From Streptomyces davaonensis JCM 4913 (GTDB lineage: Bacteria > Actinomycetota > Actinomycetes > Streptomycetales > Streptomycetaceae): DNA of 64,000 bases. The first letter of the stretch is position 1, and each line of letters opens with the position of its first letter. A program made the position numbers and the translations under genes. The notes under the pieces are model-generated. The model saw only the letters and a list, made by a program, of their open reading frames with translations, ran no database searches and was not told the origin of the DNA. Below, piece after piece: positions 25,670 to 32,760 of this stretch. Location of the stretch: NCBI RefSeq assembly GCF_000349325.1, contig NC_020504.1, positions 6,358,053 to 6,422,052 of the forward strand, read 5' to 3'.

Positions 25670-25742
25670 GGGGCTATAGCTCAGTTGGTAGAGCGCCTGC
25701 ATGGCATGCAGGAGGTCAGGAGTTCAATTCTCCTTAGCTCCA
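25670..25742 (+). tRNA. tRNA-Ala (anticodon GGC), copy 1
   Basis: A 73-nt cloverleaf. The acceptor is GGGGCTA with TAGCTCC (one G-T). The D arm holds AGCTCAGTTGGTAGAGC, the anticodon stem CCTGC/GCAGG encloses loop ATGGCAT with GGC at 25703-25705, and the T loop is TTCAATT. The discriminator is A and no CCA is encoded. G3-T70 is the alanine identity pair. TAGAGT (25628-25633) upstream may be its -10 box. An identical copy lies at 26468-26540. Confidence 0.97.
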
Positions 25743-25765
25743 CAGATCAAGAACGAAGATCAGGA

Positions 25766-26467: not shown

Positions 26468-26540
26468 GGGGCTATAGCTCAGTTGGTAGAGCGCCTGCAT
26501 GGCATGCAGGAGGTCAGGAGTTCAATTCTCCTTAGCTCCA
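26468..26540 (+). tRNA. tRNA-Ala (anticodon GGC), copy 2
   Basis: Identical over all 73 nt to the copy at 25670-25742, with GGC at 26501-26503 and no encoded CCA. The identity continues for about 5 nt downstream (CAGAT). Promoter and terminator sequences differ from copy 1, so each copy is an independent transcription unit. Confidence 0.97.
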
Positions 26541-26547
26541 CAGATAA

Positions 26548-29714: not shown

Positions 29715-29720
29715 TACCCT
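29715..29720 (+). promoter_or_regulatory. leuS: -10 box of the leuS leader transcript
   Basis: TACCCT, then 6 nt, then the leader-peptide ATG at 29727. Transcription would start at the leader start codon. Confidence 0.6.
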
Positions 29721-29726
29721 GACGCC

Positions 29727-29765
29727 ATGCGTGCCGTACGCCTTCTGCTTAGCGAGCCGCGCTGA
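29727..29765 (+). CDS. Leu-rich leader peptide of leuS
   Basis: Twelve codons, [12 protein letters not shown] then TGA. Codons 6-8 are three consecutive leucines written CTT-CTG-CTT; CTT is rare in this high-GC genome. Lack of charged tRNA-Leu should stall a ribosome there. The last codons and stop fall in the 5' arm of the hairpin at 29756-29810. This is the arrangement of a classical amino-acid attenuator, placed 125 nt before the leucyl-tRNA synthetase gene. No ribosome site precedes the ATG; leaderless initiation is likely. Confidence 0.75.
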
Positions 29766-29810
29766 TCAGCACCGGCCACCGTCGGAAAGAGTGGCCGGAA
29801 TCGGCGCGGC
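29756..29810 (+). promoter_or_regulatory. leuS: Composite hairpin overlapping the leader-peptide end
   Basis: GCCGCGCTGAT (29756-29766) pairs with ATCGGCGCGGC (29800-29810) over 11 bp with one G-T. Inside it CCGGCCAC (29772-29779) pairs with GTGGCCGG (29791-29798). Ribosome position on the leader peptide would decide whether the outer stem forms. Confidence 0.65.
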
Positions 29811-29811
29811 G

Positions 29812-29836
29812 TCCCCTCCTGTGCGAGGGGATTTTT
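29812..29836 (+). terminator. leuS: Attenuator terminator before leuS
   Basis: TCCCCTC (29812-29818), 6-nt loop, GAGGGGA (29825-29831), TTTTT. It lies 47 nt after the leader stop and 53 nt before the leuS ATG. An alternative pairing of GCGGCGTCC (29806-29814) with GGAC/GCCGC in 29845-29857 could compete with it. Confidence 0.85.
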
Positions 29837-29889
29837 CGTTTCTTGGACGTCAGCCGCTGGCAGAGACGATCGATGGAGCTTTGAGGATC

Positions 29890-32760
<2,871 letters not shown>

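Follow-up and report, generated by a model that had tools for sequence, protein, structure and literature searches.

What controls leuS in Streptomyces davaonensis? Upstream of this gene, the 64,000-nucleotide stretch of DNA that we analyzed (the window) carries on its + strand a TACCCT box, a leader ORF, an 11-bp stem, an inner hairpin, and a terminator with T5. The original prediction described a 12-residue leader with CTT-CTG-CTT starting 6 nt past TACCCT, whose end overlaps the 5' arm of an 11-bp stem and which is followed by a terminator with TTTTT ahead of leuS. All of these were found in the sequence, at the following positions.

29715..29720, + strand: -10-like box TACCCT; the ATG of the leader starts 6 nt later (29727)
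29727..29765, + strand: leader ORF of 12 codons, ATG at 29727 and UGA at 29763-29765; peptide identical to S. lividans LeuL2
29742..29750, + strand: regulatory Leu codons CTT CTG CTT, conserved in the genus and class sequences
29756..29766, + strand: arm B, the 5' arm of the 11-bp stem, holding the last leader codons and the UGA
29772..29798, + strand: inner hairpin of variable sequence and length, with an 8-bp stem (29772-29779 / 29791-29798); missing in some relatives
29800..29810, + strand: arm E, the 3' arm of the 11-bp stem, pairing with B (one G-U)
29811..29836, + strand: intrinsic terminator with CCCCTC (29813-29818), loop CTGTGC (29819-29824), GAGGGG (29825-29830), and T5 (29832-29836)
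29890..32760, + strand: leuS, bacterial leucyl-tRNA synthetase (LeuRS) of 956 aa, with ATG at 29890 (NCBIfam TIGR00396, 914.6 bits against a cut-off of 548.4; its solved relatives are LeuRS)

The terminator stem spans 29811-29832. The RNA from 29727 to 29845 has a predicted folding energy of -57.6 kcal/mol compared to -44.7 ± 3.6 for 200 shuffled sequences (z = -3.6), all of which it beats. Scanning the window with Rfam at gathering scores returned two tRNAs only, with no match to the T-box model (core and specifier loop) or to another family. Two tRNA-Ala (GGC) genes lie at 25670-25743 and 26468-26541, about 800 bases apart and with equal Rfam scores. Directly 5' of leuS, positions 29859-29889 are conserved beyond the needs of a ribosome-binding site, and GGCAGAGACGAYCGATGGAGC is exact in 81/110 genus loci. 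A pairing seen by eye between the Leu codons and the conserved GGCAGAG before leuS was dropped, as a CTC at the first codon (11/110) would break one pair.

The leuS attenuator is already known in Streptomyces, and the element of the window is that published element. Classical attenuators were predicted in front of leuS of S. avermitilis and S. coelicolor (Seliverstov 2005, PMC1262725). In S. lividans TK24, leuL2 encodes the identical peptide, is leaderless by RNA-seq, and is followed by a hairpin and a U stretch, according to the part of PMC8079986 available to us. This supports the proposal that the sensor peptide is translated from a leaderless start. For Corynebacterium glutamicum, the leader peptides named in the available part of PMC3890552 are those of trpE, leuA, ilvB, and aroF. 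In the open-access literature, we recognized no work that takes the leader beyond Streptomyces or that reports it in front of two LeuRS lineages. What the present analysis adds to the published work is the class-wide range of the leader, its covariation, the rules for codons and spacing, and the finding of two LeuRS lineages.

Distribution of the leader and conservation of its parts

A DNA search of the genus gave matches in 119/121 genomes, with a single match in the window's own genome. We read 110 of these 119 loci: the Leu run was present in 110/110 and the exact peptide of the window in 57. The two misses were a genome in which leuS is cut by a contig end (G001) and one with a distant LeuRS, stretches of which are 36-51% identical, and in which no leader was found (G045). 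The 105 distinct sequences formed the genus alignment A1, from which the covariance model R1 was built for the family and class searches.

R1 matched in 150/150 genomes and 17/17 genera of the family (own genus included), and leuS stood behind the leader in 32 of 33 fetched loci. In the class, it matched in 96/246 genomes and 46/103 genera, 22 of the 96 genomes being of the window's own genus; the count is 91 genomes and 41 genera without G300, G371, G418, and G426, where the match precedes other branched-chain genes, and without the partial match of G429. Among the 150 class genomes lacking a match, 18 were examined. One of them (G269) has a partial leuS only, and with the filters off, 2 of the other 17 (L392 and L396) do carry the element, so that the class figure is a lower bound. 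The remaining 15 gave no convincing leader match before leuS with the filters off.

Over family and class, leuS follows the leader in 101 of 108 loci read (100 fetched and 8 returned directly by the class search). The seven others were a contig end (L232), a chance match in coding DNA (L255), one locus each before ilvB (L254) and leuC (L257), two before cimA (L258 and L259), and L176. This last locus (L404, 386-481) is an orphan leader with MRAARLLLTRPR, stem, and terminator, and no leuS was found on its contig of 14,910 bases; the genome also has a normal copy of the leader and is listed as 7% contaminated.

We also scanned named genomes with a pattern that does not require leuS. It returned at least 120 stretches, 80 of them listed with names, and leuS follows in 115 of these at least 120 (76/80 named and 39/40 others). 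In the four named stretches without leuS, the stored DNA ends within 344 nt, and L343 was a chance match without leader or terminator. The genera among the matches listed include Kitasatospora, Streptacidiphilus, Actinospica, Jiangella, Phytoactinopolyspora, Amycolatopsis, Prauserella, Umezawaea, Georgenia, Ornithinimicrobium, Isoptericola, Oerskovia, Kineosporia, Actinopolymorpha, and others. The predicted leuS leader element is thus spread over many actinobacteria. Two contigs labeled as Chloroflexi and Acidobacteria metagenome-assembled genomes (L278 and L315) also carry the leader, together with a leuS 66-68% identical; they are probably mis-binned actinobacterial DNA. In another locus (L380), a leader-like ORF 5' of leuS, MRAAPHPCPRREAPR ending CGCCGCGCTGA, follows a TAnnnT box and has no Leu run; this is perhaps a decayed attenuator.

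Codons and helices were compared over a class-wide alignment (A2) of 100 of the 190 class and family elements, aligned to R1 (90 of the 108 loci, 8 of the 80 named stretches, L392, and L396), with near-duplicates and non-leuS matches left out. The codon ending 5 nt before the stem encodes Leu in 100/100 (CTT in 96, CTC in 4), the second codon back in 98/100 (CTC 64, CTG 20, CTT 14), and the third in 88/100, compared to 10/100 for the fourth (-4). At least two consecutive Leu codons thus precede arm B in 98/100; the exceptions are L184, with LVL, and L239, where a single Leu was read by eye. Within the genus, the three codons are CTT (99), CTG (109), and CTT (109) in the 110 loci. The suggestion that the rare CTT codons add sensitivity fits these counts, since the stem-adjacent codon is CTT in 96/100, compared to 0.5% CTT and 7.1% CTC among the 3,992 Leu codons of the leuS genes, a figure for leuS only and not for genome-wide usage.

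The distance between Leu codon and arm B is 5 nt in 100/100; a Leu codon at this distance upstream was a condition for choosing the anchor, and every one of the 100 sequences offered one. The stop codon moves: it is a TGA at +7 inside the arm in 87 sequences, a TAG at -2 just before the arm in 9, and lies further on in 4. Because the distance from Leu codon to arm is kept while the stop moves, the pattern points to contact of a stalled ribosome with arm B as the thing under selection. A TAnnnT box stands 6-7 nt before the start in 97/98 of the class-wide leaders with an LL run and at 9 nt in the other, starts with a box having been preferred when several were possible.

In the genus, the helices vary too little to say much on structure: nine of the ten B:E pairs are intact in 105/105 sequences of A1 and the remaining one in 101, all six pairs of the terminator are intact in 105/105, a T-rich tract follows the hairpin, and RNAalifold found zero double changes in these helices. 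A further hairpin drawn by RNAalifold inside the leader (GCGUGCCGUACGC) showed no compensatory change and a few single breaks, and we do not claim it. Over A2, 98.8% of the cells are paired and double changes occur in 9/16 pairs (B:E 5/10, terminator 4/6). The 52 doubly changed cells exceed both controls, 8.8 ± 2.5 in shuffled alignments and 1-9 in slid structures; A2 was fitted to the tested structure, which favours that structure. Even so, arm pairs such as GCCGCGCTG/CAGCGCGGC, GCCGTGCTG/CAGCACGGC, and GCCGCGTCG/CGACGCGGC can be read straight from the raw sequences. The alignment of the leuS upstream region across relatives that the original prediction had called for therefore shows covariation of both helices and a conserved Leu run, and the loss of Leu run or terminator that would have spoken against attenuation was not seen (Leu run 110/110, terminator pairs 105/105).

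How the leader may act on leuS

We consider it likely, on the strength of these comparisons, that the leuS leader attenuates transcription and senses leucine tRNA by way of a leaderless ribosome, in agreement with the earlier attenuation reading, which the conserved Leu run and terminator and the covariation of both helices support. The transcript would begin at the ATG or right beside it, and a ribosome would start on it without delay. With Leu-tRNA plentiful, it would finish the leader and leave, B would pair with E, and the terminator directly after E would stop most transcripts. With Leu-tRNA short, the ribosome would stall on the Leu codons, 5 nt before B, presumably covering the 5' half of B. 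E would then stay unpaired, and E and the neighboring GC-rich RNA might be free to interfere with the terminator; in Streptomyces, the loop CUGUGC of the terminator possibly pairs with GCGCGG while the 3' arm has yet to be transcribed. With the terminator disturbed, the polymerase would read through into leuS, so that the cell probably makes more LeuRS when charged leucine tRNA is short.

Several observations argue for this attenuator. leuS follows in nearly all family and class loci and in the scan that did not require it; Leu is kept before B with several synonymous codons, whereas codon -4 is rarely Leu; the 5-nt spacing is fixed though the position of the stop varies; and both B:E and the terminator covary. 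The leaderless transcription start, the hairpin, and the U tract described for S. lividans (available part of PMC8079986) point the same way, as do four weak model matches that show a similar design before the branched-chain genes leuC, ilvB, and cimA (twice). On the other side, changing codons in the candidate ilvB leader of S. coelicolor had no effect, as far as the accessible text of PMC1262725 goes.

In G300, G371, G418, and G426, R1 matched only in front of another branched-chain gene. Once oriented, L258 and L259 have the leader near position 81 and show by eye an Ile run (III) ending in Asn-stop, then a stem and a terminator before a cimA fragment; the leuS model matched them at E values of 0.003-0.009, and they are likely candidates for an isoleucine attenuator. 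L257 has the Leu-run leader MRTVLLLLSGRDETSF (LLLL) before a leuC fragment, and L254, with a start MRVITLVLRGRAG-stop read by eye, has a similar layout before an acetolactate synthase (ilvB) fragment. The names ilvB, leuC, and cimA rest on N-terminal fragments whose best scores were to these families, below the full-length cut-offs, and L259 was named by its resemblance to L258.

How E would disturb the terminator was examined in both alignments. In the genus, the loop is CUGUGC in 95/105 and E (GCGCGG) pairs 6/6 with it in 103/105, including sequences with a changed loop or E; a random loop (assuming 70% G+C) would do so with a probability of about 0.008. With B masked and the transcript ending just past the loop, the E:loop probability is >0.5 in 100/105 sequences. 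Once the terminator is fully transcribed, its own probability is >0.5 in 95/105 even with B masked, and in Streptomyces, it is the more stable of the two (-13.4 kcal/mol compared to -8.1 for E:loop). This counts against the attenuator in its Streptomyces form, and because of it, antitermination would have to be kinetic.

Over the class, E:loop pairing does not covary (557/1000 shuffles reach the observed mean). Of the six-nt loops, 29/55 pair 6/6 with E and 10/55 are CUGAGC, which breaks one E:loop pair; 45/100 loops have other lengths. Sequestration of the terminator arm and loop by upstream RNA rises from 4.35 to 6.10 nt when B is masked in the class set, compared to 6.09 nt with shuffled linkers, and the genus set with B masked shows no excess either (6.76 compared to 6.83 nt). 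Class-wide, E:loop is thus no more than a candidate antiterminator, and these results weigh against the attenuator as outlined above.

In a second form of ribosome-mediated attenuation, B:E would be a pause or helper hairpin that is needed for efficient termination and stacks beside the terminator, and the stalled ribosome would simply block it, with no dedicated antiterminator. We hold this to be rather unlikely, though the best placed of the alternatives. B:E covaries, the gap between its end and the terminator's six-pair core is 0-5 nt (2 nt in 77/100 class-wide), and no class-wide antiterminator was found, all of which it would explain; the Streptomyces loop should then vary freely, however, and its near constancy and its pairing with E speak against it.

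It is quite improbable that the leader acts on leuS translation, by reinitiation or by masking of the ribosome-binding site, with an incidental terminator. There is a proposal that ribosomes reinitiate at leader peptides, also in Actinobacteria (available part of PMC4833913), and some relatives, such as the Amycolatopsis loci, have a hairpin with a poor U tract. However, the leader stop and the leuS ATG are 124 nt apart in the window, the GAGG before leuS lies outside the two conserved helices, and a T-rich tract does follow the hairpin in the genus. Finally, that the conserved unit is a small protein, or a terminator that acts constitutively and has nothing to do with leucine, is hardly credible: within the genus, conservation does extend to the full peptide and down to single codons (GTA at codon 4 in 106/110), but class-wide the Leu run is fixed while the preceding residues, the length, and the stop vary, and sister elements have Ile or Leu runs before cimA and leuC.

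One leader in front of two LeuRS lineages

Compared to LeuS of the window, the 101 downstream genes fell into 68 that are 65-86% identical (type A) and 33 that are 33-44% identical (type B). Among the 115 downstream genes of the named-genome scan, counting the matches listed and the others, 96 (66 + 30) were type A and 19 (10 + 9) type B; some contigs recur in both locus sets. For the long proteins of the named loci, identity is 60-98% within A, 54-98% within B, and 33-46% (median 38) between them. A midpoint-rooted FastTree of 166 core fragments, in which leader loci are over-sampled by design, split 119 / 47, with leaders in 114 / 38. One type A and one type B protein were checked, and both are bacterial LeuRS; against 1h3n, type B scored 840.6 bits and type A 599.7. 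In the window's own genus, the genome that lacks the usual leuS match (G045) encodes its distant LeuRS at L405, 4935-7364; this protein is 46% identical to type B and 36% to that of the window, and its gene has no leader.

Behind leuS, the window has a degV gene and ORFs with competence-type domains, which from these domains we take to be comEA-like and comEC-like. Type A loci as distant as those of Jiangella and Ornithinimicrobium also have degV and/or com-type ORFs behind leuS. Of the ten type B named loci listed, L302, L328, and L294 show such neighbors, six others, each with more than 3 kb of DNA past the leader, lack them, and the tenth is too short; L411 is a fourth type B locus with the downstream genes of the window. 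G454 carries both LeuRS types, each with a leader, and degV is beside the type A copy only. Two histories are possible: the leader stayed and the enzyme under it was swapped, or gene and leader moved together.

CTT and CTC are read by one Leu isoacceptor, and the codons next to the stem are mostly these two class-wide. We tentatively suggest, with somewhat less than even confidence, that an old class-wide leaderless module has outlived its enzyme and now governs two LeuRS lineages of about 38% identity, the enzyme having been exchanged under the kept sensor (or having moved with it), and that it may report on the CTT/CTC isoacceptor and not on leucine generally. If true, this would offer a testable example of regulation that persists beyond the enzyme it controls, the leader having stayed in place while the synthetase switched lineage. 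As regards the window, the analysis bears out a control element already in the literature. The wider family supplies about 100 diverse natural variants in which some parts are constant and others shift (Leu codons, 5-nt spacing, stop position, helix), and these let one ask how attenuation works under leaderless translation and which tRNA-Leu isoacceptor is sensed.

Comparison with known systems

The trp attenuator combines a short ORF, regulatory codons, adjacent helices, and an intrinsic terminator, and the leuS leader, like trp- and pheST-type attenuators, has a short ORF with regulatory codons, adjacent helices, and an intrinsic terminator. Unlike in these, its start is leaderless, its antiterminator is only a candidate, and its stop lies inside or beside arm B and not between arms 1 and 2, so that a ribosome that had reached the stop would leave arm E uncovered. 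The leuS attenuator has been compared with pheST before (PMC1262725, in the part available). Its closest counterpart is the leuL2/leuS attenuator of Streptomyces, which shares gene, place, the peptide letter for letter, the leaderless start, and the hairpin with U tract; between it and the element of the window, no difference was seen in the available published descriptions. The LEU element of leuA also places a Leu-run leader ORF before a leucine gene, and leuL1 is leaderless in S. lividans (accessible part of PMC8079986, which describes leuL1 as having no typical terminator). For actinobacterial leuA, the published account of this element (PMC1262725) is of a pseudoknot in which Leu codons and the Shine-Dalgarno box form a stem. 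The leuS leader differs from it in having a covarying terminator. T-box riboswitches also control aminoacyl-tRNA synthetase genes by tRNA charging; in the leuS leader, however, the sensor would be the ribosome and not a bound tRNA.
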